A DNA stretch of 64,000 nucleotides. It comes from Congeria kusceri (lineage: Eukaryota > Mollusca > Bivalvia > Myida > Dreissenidae). Shown piece after piece: positions 39,762 through 58,500 of this stretch (its first letter is position 1; each line of letters opens with the position of its first letter). The notes beneath the pieces were generated by a model. It was not told where the DNA came from and ran no database searches. It was given only the letters and a program-made list of their open reading frames with translations. Both the position numbers and the translations under genes were made by a program. The stretch covers positions 40,371,926 through 40,435,925 of the forward strand of contig CM051036.1 in assembly GCA_027627225.1 (NCBI GenBank), written 5' to 3'.

Positions 39762-40056
39762 AGCCGGGCCGGCTAGCTCAGTTGGTAGAGCGCTGGACTA
39801 CAAATCCGAGGATCGCGGGTTCGATACCCAGCCCGGCCACATAACTTGTGTGGGGATTGGTCATGAAATTATTTCTACGGCCATTCTCCCCCCTACCTCT
39901 GATTCAAGTAGGGCAGTTGTCAGTTACTGGCACAGTACTGGTAAACCAGCTTACCCAGAAAAAGTGTGAGTAGGTTAACTGACCGCCGTTATATGACTGA
40001 AATACTGTTGAATACGGCGAAAAATCCAAACAAACAAACAAAACAAAACAAACTTG
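39762..40056 (+). mobile_element. tRNA-derived SINE with 8-bp target duplication (copy 1)
   Basis: The head resembles a tRNA: TAGCTCAGTTGG (A box), an anticodon-like loop CTACAAA and GGTTCGATACCC (B box), with 6 bp of acceptor pairing. A body follows with CAGTTACTGGCACAG, GTGTGAGTAGGTTAACTGACC and ACTGTTGAATACGGCG, then an A-rich CAAACAAACAAAA tail. ATCTTCTT flanks it at 39754-39761 and 40057-40064. The body's 3' part resembles mollusc V-type/RUDI SINEs from memory. Compared with copy 2 it lacks about 17 bp near 39930. Confidence 0.85.
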
Positions 40057-41966: not shown

Positions 41967-44900
41967 TCATTTCCGATGTTTTATTTCTAAAGTTATCACA
42001 GATACATTCGAAACCACGACGACTGCTATAAGAATATAAAGCTTGACGGTTGTACAGAGCCAGGCGCTGTACCCGAAGGAGACCGTCCAGCCAAGAGAGG
42101 AAAGCATCCTGTAACTGGAGAGCGCTGTGTCCCGTTTGGTCTTGAAGTGCACCATGTAGAGCGCTGTGCAAGATAGATAATAGTGTTGTAAATGATGTTA
42201 AATATACTATTGAAGTGTACCATGTAGAGCGCTGTACAATATAGTTAATGGTGTTTTAAATTATGTTAAACATTCAGTTAAAGTGAATAACAATAACGTG
42301 AATAGTGGTGTAAATGATGTAAAACATACCATTAAATTGCACCATGTAGAGCGATCTACAAGACTACTTACAGTTTTGATGTCGCGAAAAAAAAAAATAT
42401 ACATCATTATTAACATATTTTTAATGTGCATGCACAATTTCAGACCGATCAACTAAGTAGAAATGCTTGAATACGCATTTGAGAATGACGCATGACAAGC
42501 AATCTGGCTGGCATTTTCAGTGTTTTGATTATATGGGGGTGCCTGAGCCAAAATGTTAACTTAATTCATAGAAATCAGTCAAAACACTAGAATATTTTAC
42601 ATACTTTAAACATACGATTGAAGTGCACCATGTAGAGCGCTGTACAATATTTTAAGAGTAGTAAATGATATTAAACATGCAACTGACGTACACCATGTCG
42701 AGCGCTGTACACTATTGTTAATAGAGGTGTAAATGATGCTAAGCGTACAATTGAAGTACACCAAACAGAGCGATGTACAATATCATTAATATTGTTGTAA
42801 ATGATGTTAAAGATACGGTAGATGAAAAATATAATCGTAATGCGTAAATGACGCTTATAGGAGTAGTTGGTCTTCAAGTGCACCACGTAGTACCCTATAC
42901 AACATCGTAGTCATAAGTTTAAAGATGTCAAAGATATAGTTTGTGTTGGAATACATCGAAGTGCAACATATAGATCGTTGTACATTATTGTAATCATAAG
43001 TGTATATGATGTTTAAGATAGAAGTGCGGTATGTTTAATACAAATATTAAGGAAAGCATTTAAACTTATTAACTAAGTTAACTTCGTATGACTTCTTTTT
43101 CATTACTTCAGTATCAAAATATTAATGAAAAAGCTAAATTAACTTACACAGTCCAATAGTGGCATTAATAGCATCTGCAACACCCCACATGGCAGACAAT
43201 ATGTAGACCACATATAGGTCACCAGGTATCGGTCTCCATAGCAACATACATAGTAACCCAGCAATATTACATACTGCACCTGAAACAACAGTGCATCATT
43301 AATGGTGACATAAACGAATGTGCCTGTAATATCAATTCAGGAGCATTTAGCTTTATTTGATTTTCTAACATACTAGTACATGTTGCTTTTTTTTTCAAGC
43401 GATAAATTGTTAATACTAGAACATCATTAAATACTAGCACGATGACTATTAAAATGATCGTACAAACGACAGTATTTGACGTGTGGTTCAATATTATTTA
43501 TGCCATTTATTACATCCAATCTAATAGTTCTCATTATCATTATTTCATTAACCCTACACAGTTAATTTGCTGACTTATTCGGAGCAATGCAATGACAATG
43601 TTGTACCGACCTACGGAGAACACTGGAATGTTTCCTACGTGGGGTGACACCTTTCCTGCCATCACTGCTGATACTGACATACTTATTCCGTACGTAATCA
43701 TAACCAGTCCAACGTTTTCAATGCCGTACGGACAACTTATGAACGCCTGAAAGAAAAACTTGATTGTATGACTAGTAGAACAACACTTTTTGAGAAACTA
43801 TTTTCTAACTTATAACTTATCTCTAAGTGAACAAATTTGTTGCAGTTCACGTTATCAATACGCTGCTAAGCGGGAATCAATTTATTAAAAATAGTTTTAT
43901 GTATAACAATTTATAACAATCAGTACTTAATGTAAATACATTTGTTTGTAGAGACATGCAGAAAAGCGTACCACAGTAAAATCACCAGATATAAATGCCT
44001 GTGTCATGCCAGGCAAAACTGTTGAAGCAATCAAAAGGTGTTGTTTGTGCGATCTTAGAAGCAGAGAAGTCACTTGTCTGATTTTACTCAGAAGTCCTTT
44101 CTCTGAGATTCTCTGTGTTGACCGAATGTTTTTCAGGAAAATGGCCAACAAAATGACCGAAAGCAATCCCGATCCGAAACAAAATGTGGTGAAATAATAT
44201 ACCTGCAATGTAAGAAGTGGATTGCTATGTGACTTAACTATTTTCTTCCACTCAAATTATACTTTGAGCAGATTGTTTCACTATGATAAATACATACAAC
44301 CCTTGCTATATATTGTAAAAATATATTGTATATATATTGTAAATTATAAATATGATATTCAGACCCAACAGACACAAAACAACGAGGCATGCTAATTCAT
44401 AACTATATACACGTACATGTATTTCTTTTCCATTTCTTTTCCATAATTCTAAACTTAATAACTTCCTTTGAATTATCTTCATATACAGTATATGGACAAA
44501 GCAAATATTCGCGAAAAATAAAACAAGAGTTACTGCTGTTTAAGCAATCGGTAGAGCGAAAATGTGAAGGAAGCTGTGGTACCTGCAGCATGTTTGGTTG
44601 TTTGACATGACTAGCATTTTGCCCCTTGGATGCACAAAACTCTGACCCACAGAGGACCGGGTCACTTTCCTTTACAGTAACTGTCGTGGTGTTGTACAAC
44701 ATTGAAGTGTTGTTGGTTTGAATTCCAGACACCGTGTTGTCGTTGAAAACAACAAAAGAGCACAAGTTGCCCCATACTTGTGCTGCAAAATACGTATAAT
44801 TTAATAATTTACTTACGACAGTTTTATTGGAATTGAAGTTGTGTTGTTGTTTTTTCAAAACGTATATGTGATGGTAATCTGTGTATATTTTATTCGTAGT

Positions 44901-46744
44901 TCGTTGCTATTTCAGTTGTGTTTGTTTTAGTAATTCTGTCGTTATGTTCTTGTTGCTTTTATTGATGCCGTTGTTGCCTGTGTTGTTAGTTTGAACAACC
45001 TATGAAATGATGATTGTTACAACTTTATTTATTCAAATATCAAATCCAATTAAATGCCGTGGCTTATTTTCTCCTGAGTTGAACTTACACGTGTAAACTA
45101 TACCAAAGAATACGCCGTTGAAAAGGACCAAAGCCCTGGTTTCATCCGTCCGAGTGTGAATGGCATACGCCTTTGACAAATCGGAAACGTACGATTGTTG
45201 GGTCGGCCAAAGGTGGGCTGCCCCTGAAATTAAAGACAATTGAGGCGTTTCGTGGGAAACCCGGGCTAAAAGCTTGAACGAAAGTATCGTCCCGGATTAG
45301 CCCGTGCAGTCCGCATAGGCTAGTCCAGGATGACACTGTCCGCTTTTATGGGACTCTCTGCTTCAAAGTGGACACTTTCTTTTTTGTCTTGACTATGTCT
45401 CTTCTAATCATAAATCCACTATGGGCGGAAAGTGCCGTCCTGAATTAGCATGTGCGCACTTGACGCACATGCATTAAGCCCGGTTTCAAAATTAGGAACA
45501 AATTATTCTGACTGTTTGTATTAAAACTTTAGCAATTTCATACATATTTATGACTAAAAGACACAATGTGTCGTGACGTTCGACAACAAATTTAACAAAT
45601 TATTAAAATTGCAGTGTCATTTCTCAGCATTCACCAACAGAAAACGCATCACATTGTGGAAATAATATATTGAAAACCGTGAGGAAATAATAAAGATTTA
45701 TTAGATTTATCAGTTTTATTTCACAAGCCTTATCACAAGCTATTGTAATCTCGGTTATTCGCTCTGCGCATTTCCCGTTAAGATAAACATATCTACGGTG
45801 TTTTTAAATTTACATAACCGTTCGTTATCAATAACCTCTTTGTGCAAAATACATCACACATACATATAAAATAATTACAATATGACAACAATCAGAATTC
45901 CAAATGATGTAATGAACATACGATTTTACCAAATGCGTTTCTATTTTTTTTCTTTCCTATCAAATAAAATATAATGCTTTACTACTACGTTTTAAGTTAG
46001 ATTGTTTTTTAAGATTACCGAAATAAATGAAATAAAAACAATGACGACGGTTATAGATACGTTGTTGTATTATATTCAACATATGTATTTATATGGCATG
46101 TAACCTTTTTACTTAATTCCTTCACTATGTGTTTCAATAAAGGGATAACATACCAGCATATCCCATATGAATAAAATTCAGTATTCCGTTAGTCTCCCTT
46201 TGTCCATTTTTAAGTATGTATATATTTTTTTATCGAAGCACTGTGACATACCGAATCCAATAATGATAGATCCCGGTATGATGGTGTACCAACTGGAATA
46301 GTACCCAGTGGCCATATAGCACACATATCCTAGCATGGATATCATCAACATATGCTTGAAGCGAAGTTTCGGCAAGGTGATAACGGTTACAAACAGGTTT
46401 GTTACCACCATTGTTGCATATATGGTGGCCAGACCGGTTGTTCCAAGACCCTCGGAGATATTTATGGTGCTCTGCACGTTGGCAAACGAGCTGAAGGCCG
46501 TGAACAGTAGAGTGAAGCACACACTCAACACGATCAAGTTCCATTTTGCCTTAGATTTGGAAATATATGGAACACCGTTTACGGTTGCTTCTTTTGTGCA
46601 AGTGCCATCGATGTCCGCTATTTCATTAATATCTACATTTATGGCTTTGTGCTTATCATCTTCTACAAGTTCACTTGTCACTGTTTGGTCGTCGATTTTA
46701 TCCAAATTTTCTGCATTACATCCGATTAGTGTGTCAGCCTCCAT
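41967..46744 (-). CDS. UNC93-like multi-pass membrane protein, seven exons, complete
   Basis: Exons 46744-46252, 45223-45089, 44782-44583, 44202-43972, 43746-43611, 43279-43148 and 42163-41967 keep phase throughout and give 507 residues. The first ~67 residues are polar and probably cytosolic. Then come hydrophobic helices of the UNC93/MFS fold (LIVLSVCFTLLFTAFSSFAN; LGYVCYMATGYYSSWYTIIPGSIIIGFG; GVFFGIVY; SQVWGNL). A luminal loop rich in Asn-x-Thr/Ser sites and cysteines is followed by more helices (SGLLSVILLAIFL, GLVMITYGISMSVSAVMAGK, AGLLCMLLW, YVVYILSAMWGVADAINATIGL) and a last helix in LYILIAVVVVSNVSV. UNC93 family members regulate potassium channels or traffic Toll-like receptors; which applies here is unknown, and UNC93A-like is my best guess. 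AATAAA just past the stop (about 41866) is a plausible polyadenylation signal. Confidence 0.93.
42141..42990 (-). repeat. Tandem copies of the last UNC93 exon's acceptor and start
   Basis: Eight units start near 42141 (the real exon edge), 42211, 42331, 42618, 42680, 42751, 42871 and 42956. On the minus strand each approximates TTGTACAG|CGCTCTACATGG then TGCACTTCA, that is, the acceptor AG and the codons for Leu-Tyr-Met-Val-His-Phe. Units are joined by TATTGTTAATAGTGGTGTAAATGATGTTAAACATAC-like spacers. Spacing is 60-120 bp except for a ~290-bp gap holding unrelated sequence. The copies diverge (several lose the Met codon or the AG). Confidence 0.85.
45241..45487. mobile_element. MITE (copy 3) in UNC93 intron 1, 16 bp from the exon-2 acceptor
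   Basis: The left end TGAGGCGTTTCGTGGGAAAC then CCGGGC, inner ATCGTCCCGGATTAGCCCGTGCAGTCCGCATAGGC, and right end ACGCACATGCATTAAGCCCGG match the family at 7311. Exon 2 starts at 45223, so the branch point of this intron should lie in or at the edge of the MITE. Confidence 0.85.
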
Positions 46745-47600: not shown

Positions 47601-48095
47601 CTTGCTTACTTACTTACCTACCGGTCACCTCCCTACCTCCCTACATAACTACCTACCTACCTACTTACTTACTTACCTACCGGTCACCTCCCTACCTCCC
47701 TACATAACTACCTACCTACCTACTTACTGACTTACCTACCGGTCACCTCCCTACCTCCCTACATAACTACCTACCTACCTACTTACTGACTTACCTACCG
47801 GTCACCTCCCTACCTCCCTACATAACTACCTACCTACCTACTTACTGACTTACCTACCGGTCACCTCCCTACCTCCCTACATAACTACCTACCTACCTAC
47901 TTACTGACTTACCTACCGGTCACCTCCCTACCTCCCTACATAACTACCTACCTACCTACTTACTGACTTACCTACCGGTCACCTCCCTACCTCCCTACAT
48001 AACTACCTACCTACCTACTTACTTACTTACCTACCGGTCACCTCCCTACCTCCCTACATAACTACCTACCTACCTACTTACTGACTTACTGATTA
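47601..48095. repeat. 59-bp satellite, about eight near-identical units
   Basis: The unit is CTTACCTACCGGTCACCTCC then CTACCTCCCTACATAACTAC, CTACCTACCTACTTACTGA. The 59-bp period is exact through most of the block; the main variant is TTACTTACTTA versus TTACTGACTTA. It is built from CTAC/TTAC tetramers. On the minus strand each unit carries GTAGGTAAGT. Confidence 0.95.
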
Positions 48096-55500: not shown

Positions 55501-58500
55501 GTGCCATCATACGCACCCTTCACTTAAGGTAAGTTATCAACGGTTAGCAATCATACGCACTCTACACTTAAGTTATCAACGGTATGCAATCATACGAGCC
55601 CTTCACTTAAGGTAAGCTATCAACGGTAGGCAATCATACGCACCCTTCACTTAAGTTAACGGTATATCGAGAGCCGGGCCGGCTAGCTCAGTTGGTAGAG
55701 CGCTGGACTACAAATCCGAGGATCGCAGGTTCGATTCCCAGCCCGGCCACATAACTTGTGTGGGGATTTCTCATGAAATTATTCTAAGGCCATTATCCCC
55801 CTACCTCTGATTCAAGAAGGGCAGTTGTCAGTTACTGGCACAATTATGTGCACTTAGTACTGGTAATCCAGCTGACCCAGGAAAAGTGTGAGTAGGTTAA
55901 CTGACCGCCGTTATATGACTGAAATACTGTTGAAAACGGCGAAAAACCCAAACAAACAAATATGTGCAACCATACACACACTTCACTTACGGTAAGTTAT
56001 CAACAGTATGCAGTTATACACACATTCCACTTAAGGTAAGTTATCAACAGAATGCAATCATACGCACCCTTCACTTAAGGTAAGTTATCAACGGTAGGCA
56101 ACGTTAAGTTATTAACGGTATATGTGCAATCATTCACTTAAGGTAAGTTATCAACAGTAGGCAATCATACGCACCCTCCACTTAAGGTAAGTTATCAACG
56201 GTATACAATCATGCGCACACTACACTTAAGTTATTAGCGGTATATGTGCAATCATACGCACCCTCCAATTAAGGTAAGCTATCAACGGTATGCAATCATT
56301 CGCACCCTCCAATTAGGTAAGCTATCAACGGTATGCAATCATACGCACCCTCCAATTAAGGTAAGCTATCAACGGTATGCAATCATACGCACCCTTCACT
56401 TATGTTATTAGCTGTAAATGTGCAATCATACGCACCCTTCACTTAAGGTAAGCTATCAACGGTATGCAATCATGCGCACACTACACTTAAGTTATTAACG
56501 GTATATGTGCAATCATACGCACCCTCCAATTAAGGTAAGCTATCAACGGTATGCAATTATGCGCACACAACACTTAAGTTATTAACGGTATATGTGCAAT
56601 CATACGCACCCTTCACTTAATGTAAGTTATCAACGGTATACAATCATGCGCACACTACACTTAAGTTACTAACGGTATATGTGCAATCTTAAGCAACCTC
56701 CACTTAAGGTAAGTTATCAACGGCATCAATCATACACACGCTCCTCCGAAATGAAAAGCTACTTATAACAATCCTACGCACCCTCCTCTGGGATGTACTT
56801 GAGCGGCACGGTGAAGATCTCGCTGTCGTCGAGATCTTTCTGCTTGAAGACGCTGGTAGACCTACACCACCGCTCGGCGCAGTCCTGGTCCCGGAACATC
56901 ATCACGATGAAACACTGTTCCGGATGTCCTCGGTACAGGTCGCCTTCACAGCGAGAAATCTGTAAGCGGGCACACATATAACATTACTTACAGTTTTTTA
57001 ATCAGCATGCTTCATGCCGCATGAACACGTATTGGTCATAAGTGACTTTAAAAAGTGGCTGTCTTCCACTTGTTTGGGTTATCTCCCATTCATAAACAAA
57101 ACAATAGTTAACGGTTTATAGTAAAATTTTGCAAGTGCCGTCATTTTTGCATCTAAAATCAAAGTGAATATAGACTGAAGTCAGGCATTTGGGAATCAGT
57201 TTAGTCACTCGACTGTATACACGGCCGGATTGAATGATAACGCTGAGTATTCGTAATCGAAGACTGAACGGGAAGTAGCGAACCTAGCTTACACTTAATG
57301 CGCATGCAGCTGTGTTAGTATTTCTCTACAGATAGTATTGATGGTTCAACACGGGAATAAAATCATATTATTTAGTTAAATACTTATTTAAACTAACCGA
57401 ATGCAATAGTTCACGGTACATTTTGTTGTGTCGCAAAGTTACCTGTTCTGCCAGTCCCAGAAGAGTCCCGTGGAAGTTTTCACGCACTTTTTTGTCCTTG
57501 ACGAAGGCGTTGATCAGCCTCCGAACCCATTCCTTCTTGGCGCGTACAAACAAGTACACCTCCTTCGTGGCGGAACAAATCTGGTGAAAAGTAACGAAGA
57601 AACTATCATAGCATCGCATCAACCGGGAAAAATACTTCGTTTCATAAAGTTAATAAACCTATTCTGCATAGGCACACACAGATATAGTTCAAACGTTTAA
57701 ACTAGTTCTTGTACTGTTTTATGTCATTTGATTGACGTTGGTGGGGCATCCACGCAAGAAATATTAATCGTCAGGCCTGTGCCTGAGGTTGGACCTGTGA
57801 TACGCACTGATGCTGGTGATCGTGGGTACTGGGACACGCCCCCTGATTTTGTTTTGTAGTTAAAATGGCGATGGTGCAATTTGCACGATCCTACATGTGA
57901 TAACAAAACGGGCTCCATTTCTTAGGTCGAATATACGTTAAACACTTACCATGTTGTTCTTCTAATGAAATATCCCATTTCCAAAACGACATTTAAATCA
58001 TGTATAGGGTTTTACACAAAGTGACATATATTCGAGTTTTTTATTAAACGCCCCTCAATGTAGTTCAATAAAAGAGCAAACACGATATCATGATAAATTT
58101 AATTACATAAATTACATAAATTTACATAATAAATCTACACAAACACCGTAATATTAATTATCAGTTTTGTGAAAAACCAGCTATAAATATATAAATAAAT
58201 AAATAAATAAATATATATATATATATTACCAAAACCCCGCTTTACGACCACCCCGCTAAAGCGGACACTTTTTAAAAGACCCGATTGTTTTCTTATATAT
58301 TTCAATGGTTGCAAACCCCGATTTTACGGGCACCCCGCTATTCCGTATTACGACCACTAATCCCAGACCGAAAGTACCAAATACTTCTCAAAATAACCCC
58401 GTTATTGCGACCAGTGTCATTTGGTCGTTGACACTTAACATCATCAATTAACAACATATGATCTCTGTGATCTGCCGTACCTCGATAATACGACCACCCC

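Follow-up and report, generated by a model that had tools for sequence, protein, structure and literature searches.

A putative mirage-type minisatellite across the last intron/exon border of a UNC93A-like gene in the bivalve Congeria kusceri

Border-spanning arrays in lancelets and in a bivalve

Minisatellites that span an intron/exon border, termed mirages, have been described in amphioxus. Those of the globin genes BflGb6 and BflGb9 and of Adh3 are reported to leave splicing undisturbed and to differ in length from one haplotype to another, and it has been suggested that they give rise to new introns (PMC3087553). The lancelet PGBD5 gene carries 60- and 108-bp repeats, and these, with the mirages of Adh and troponin C, are held to be harmless to splicing in the accessible portion of that account (PMC3902484). 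Among the matches listed from the open-licence literature, border-spanning arrays called mirages come from lancelets only, and a mollusc case may exist. Intron gain in Drosophila has been traced to proto-splice sites duplicated in tandem (PMC2891723), and for human paralogs a route through internal tandem repeats is described (PMC2812944); in abalone a minisatellite with a 27-bp unit in intron 3 of a TSSK1-like gene is described, in the part of its report at hand, as variable between individuals (PMC6905558).

We describe here an array in the bivalve Congeria kusceri for which the best reading of its sequence is a minisatellite of the mirage kind known from lancelets. As in the parts available of the amphioxus account, it is a tandem repeat across an intron/exon border (here eight copies with the true border), its unit joins the 3' end of an intron to the 5' part of an exon as in BflGb6, and splice signals are present in many but not all units, the AG being kept in four of seven decoys here (PMC3087553). 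The unit is 68 bp, as against 150–160 bp in BflGb6 and 10–72 bp in Adh3, and whereas the BflGb6 units are 81–100% identical, the present array is more decayed, is split by an insert, and lies in a bivalve UNC93 gene (PMC3087553, as far as available). The PGBD5 and troponin C arrays are likewise tandem repeats over splice sites, imperfect in PGBD5, but they concern different genes and a different phylum, and the 108-bp PGBD5 repeat is given in the accessible text as a triplication, compared with eight border copies here (PMC3902484). As at this locus, splice signals in the Drosophila and human cases are multiplied or activated by a local duplication in tandem, but those duplications yield new introns (PMC2891723, PMC2812944), whereas here a pre-existing intron has grown longer and none is shown to be new. 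The abalone array is also an intronic minisatellite of a mollusc gene, although in the available part of its description it is not said to cross a splice site (PMC6905558).

The host gene and its repeated border

The array lies in a window of 64,000 nucleotides, the whole stretch of DNA that was analysed, and its host is a predicted transporter-like, UNC93A-like gene with an intact gene model. The splice model has seven exons on the minus strand (46744–41967), with an open frame of 507 aa and GT-AG borders: exon 1 with the ATG (46252–46744), exon 2 (45089–45223; tblastn match to Mya P0003, 49% over 45 aa), exon 3 (44583–44782), exon 4 (43972–44202), exon 5 (43611–43746), exon 6 (43148–43279), which ends at the phase 1 donor TGT/GTAAGT, and the last exon, exon 7 (41967–42163), with its acceptor AG at 42165–42164. 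The whole 507-aa protein matches Pfam UNC-93 (PF05978) with 47.1 bits against a gathering score of 22.9, and also matches MFS_1; in the Pfam search the last exon alone gave no family match, and for exon 1 alone MFS_1 was the sole match, below its cut-off. A protein search with a query lacking exon 2 found eight proteins past E 1e-20, the nearest of those found, from Mercenaria (44% and 40%) and Mya (33–36%), being unc-93 homolog A-like. The annotated isoform pairs of these species (Mercenaria P0001/P0002, Mya P0003/P0004 and P0006/P0007) are distinguished by internal stretches that correspond to exon 2 or exon 4 of the present gene. A search of 22 stretches, covering 210 kb on the right side of the window and 10 kb on its left, found no relatives of the gene. 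The protein alignment with Mercenaria runs without gaps across the exon 6/7 junction, and the acceptor at 42163 is therefore, as far as comparison goes, the correct one, as the sequence-only reading had it.

Intron 6 holds seven decoy copies of this acceptor together with the first ~22 bases of exon 7, or eight copies with the true site. The array is a degenerate minisatellite across the intron 6/exon 7 border (42142–43026, minus strand), and alignment of its units finds similarity on both sides of that border, on which the sequence-only reading depended: the 68-bp unit consists of 22 exon-like bases and 46 intron-side bases through the next AG, the AG included. Copies were compared on the coding (minus) strand with a 25-nt motif, CAG plus 22 exon bases, as it stands at the true site (42163; 0/25 mismatches), and all eight lie within six mismatches of it. 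Two decoys, U2 (42210–42231; one mismatch) and U4 (42618–42639; identical at 25/25 and followed by ATC/GTATGT), keep both the AG and the reading LYMVHF, while U5 (42683–42704; four mismatches) keeps the AG and reads LDMVYV, and U7 (42866–42894; six mismatches) keeps it as TAG. In the others the CAG has become GAT (U3, 42332–42353; four mismatches, reading LYMVQF), CAT (U6, 42751–42772; five mismatches) or CAA (U8, 42956–42977; five mismatches), and the AG is thus kept at 42231, 42639, 42704 and 42894 and lost at 42353, 42772 and 42977. Two further minus-strand units, U2' (about 42232–42299) and U6' (42773–42827, ends approximate), are without the core, and a non-repeat insert of about 230 nt (42366–42605, ends approximate, unstranded) divides the array. 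Likeness to the exon ends at base 22 in six of the seven decoys and extends six bases further in U7, through GACCAA, suggesting that duplication occurred more than once.

The eight copies of the acceptor with the opening codons of the last UNC93 exon were noticed in the sequence-only reading at these same places, and both the motif matches and the shuffles bear them out; its statement that several copies retain the AG together with the LYMVH reading applies to two (42231 and 42639) only. Chance similarity is ruled out by 500 dinucleotide shuffles of the intron, in which the best match had seven mismatches (one shuffle) and six was never reached, and a slip in the assembly is ruled out by pairs of copies that differ at up to 18 of 42 bases. 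When 60 nt around each of the gene's 12 splice borders were queried against the window, only the exon 7 acceptor border was found to recur nearby, its query finding all seven copies; three of the other eleven had one short distant match each, none of them close to the border.

One more border-like stretch, CACAGCGCTCTCCA, lies within the last exon at 42116–42129 (minus strand), in frame and 39 nt past the true border, which it resembles at 13 of 14 bases. This site, CACAG/CGCTCTCCA, was considered as a further copy and rejected on its acceptor score of -0.6 in an approximate matrix and on the Ala-Leu that Mercenaria has at both places; on these comparisons chance together with coding constraint appears the likelier explanation.

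Other repeats occur in the window. Between 54011 and 56733 (plus strand) there are minisatellites of 44, 83 and 87 bp with a consensus containing CTTAAG/GTAAG, a strong-looking 5' splice donor, and CACTTAAGGTAAGTTA occurs 16 times within this interval and nowhere else on the plus strand of the window; these minisatellites could form a putative donor-side border array. A 59-bp tandem array at 47605–48089 (8.2 copies, 99% matches) lies about 0.9 kb upstream of the ATG of the UNC93A-like gene. ARAGORN calls two tRNA-Cys (anticodon aca) on the plus strand, at 39767–39840 and 55677–55750, the second just past the end of the 44-bp array (55659), and this one may be a tRNA-derived repeat.

Age of the border and origin of the array

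A tandem array that includes an exon border could have arisen from the border, or a repeat of mobile or satellite origin could have come first and the exon start been recruited from it. We regard the second order as extremely improbable. The unit can indeed be read as a free minisatellite, but 122 nt of the array, used as a query on the 1.549-Gb genome, hit no locus other than their own, in a search that scores just its best candidates and so gives a rarity that is not absolute; no second locus being found with this one query, a dispersed repeat was rejected. The last-exon peptide, in contrast, has at least seven other genomic matches at 29–41% identity (13 candidates scored), one of which, L032, contains a stop. 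All seven have a CAG at the same codon and in phase 1, which also supports 42163 as the true acceptor, and in five of them an in-frame stop lies within 25 codons before the CAG, as expected of an intron. Within about 3.2 kb at each of these seven places the repeated border is absent, save for a 17-nt match on the opposite strand in L032. Because the relatives share the CAG and its phase without the repeated border, the array grew from the exon border and not the reverse, and the gapless alignment of the exon start with Mercenaria likewise speaks against recruitment from a repeat. These comparisons indicate that the exon border is old, and that the array is of later origin and, as far as the searches reach, confined to this locus.

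Decoy acceptors and their likely fate

We think it highly likely, judging from the sequence, that the array is a neutral minisatellite of the mirage type, more probably a harmless remnant than a switch of splicing. A segment running from the last part of intron 6 into the start of exon 7 would have been duplicated in tandem, and the copies would have spread, possibly through slippage or unequal exchange. The 3'-most copy alone would be joined to the remainder of the exon and so stay the acceptor in use, while the upstream copies, being intronic, would decay without clear constraint, and the spliceosome presumably ignores them. The seven decoys differ from the true exon at 10, 4 and 6 sites at codon positions 1, 2 and 3 respectively, and we therefore see no coding constraint on them and reject it as an explanation. 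Two observations count in the other direction. The U4 core is perfect (25/25), and differences from the consensus are fewer on the exon side (20/154) than on the intron side (22/102; Fisher p 0.085, the copies not being independent), a comparison that excludes U3, where the insert replaces the intron side, and that gives a hint against pure neutrality.

Acceptor strength was assessed with an approximate matrix, on which the true acceptor scores 7.1 and the decoys with an AG score 2.8 (U2), 2.6 (U7), 0.4 (U4) and -0.6 (U5). On the same approximate matrix the scores are 7.2, 2.3, 9.7, 7.6 and 7.0 for the gene's other five acceptors and 5.4–10.7 for those of the seven other last-exon matches, giving a range of 2.3–10.7 for these 12 with 11 at or above 5.4, and an AG of the intron outside the repeats scores 3.9, higher than all of the decoys. 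Ranked by this approximate score among the 3044 minus-strand AGs of the window, the true site falls in the top 3% and the four decoys in the top 20–47%.

It is conceivable that splicing draws on the decoys rarely or in a regulated way, giving truncated C-termini without the last helices or useless mRNA that lowers output, but we consider this unlikely. An AG is present in four of the seven decoys, two of them with the full exon start, and U2 and U7 are not dead by score, because the exon 3 acceptor (2.3 on the approximate matrix) scores lower than both; moreover, according to reports on human TERT (PMC11830802) and C. elegans (PMC4039745), an intronic tandem repeat can be linked to splicing. 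Nevertheless, the approximate scores of the decoys lie within the range of ordinary AGs, three of the seven have lost the AG, coding constraint is absent, and the three annotated isoform pairs of Mercenaria and Mya vary in inner exons and never in the last. In the splice model, use of any of the four AG decoys shifts the frame and loses the proper C-terminus, with 74 (U7), 17 (U5), 17 (U4) or 68 (U2) residues following exon 6, compared with 65 from the true site. The sequence-only reading had foreseen alternative C-termini without the final helix, and the loss of the C-terminus stands, although the hydrophobic stretches suggest that decoy use would probably remove the last two helices and not one. 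Between the capture of splicing and a non-functional expansion, both of which it had left in play, the second is better supported by the scores, the pattern of decay and the frameshift.

The perfect core of U4 invites another reading, in which a 24-nt mini-exon, CAG/CGCTCTACATGGTGCACTTCAATC/GTATGT, forms an incipient exon and intron and inserts eight in-frame residues ahead of the true exon. Its GTATGT stands 24 nt past the AG of U4, the frame remains open to 515 aa, and a corresponding route to intron gain has been proposed for the amphioxus mirages in the accessible part of that report (PMC3087553), but both its acceptor (0.4 on the approximate matrix) and its donor (2.1) are weak, and we hold this reading to be very unlikely. 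A broader proposal is that the array is an intermediate of intron gain in which U4 is already spliced in as this in-frame mini-exon, or that the decoys tune the UNC93 C-terminus, with individuals differing in array length and hence in their mix of isoforms; we judge it decidedly improbable from the sequence.

Read instead as a neutral minisatellite, the locus would be an array of the mirage type in a mollusc, and one whose direction of change can be read from relatives within its own genome. Arrays of this kind may serve as natural tests of how the spliceosome chooses one acceptor among near-identical neighbours, and they have also been proposed as an origin of new introns.
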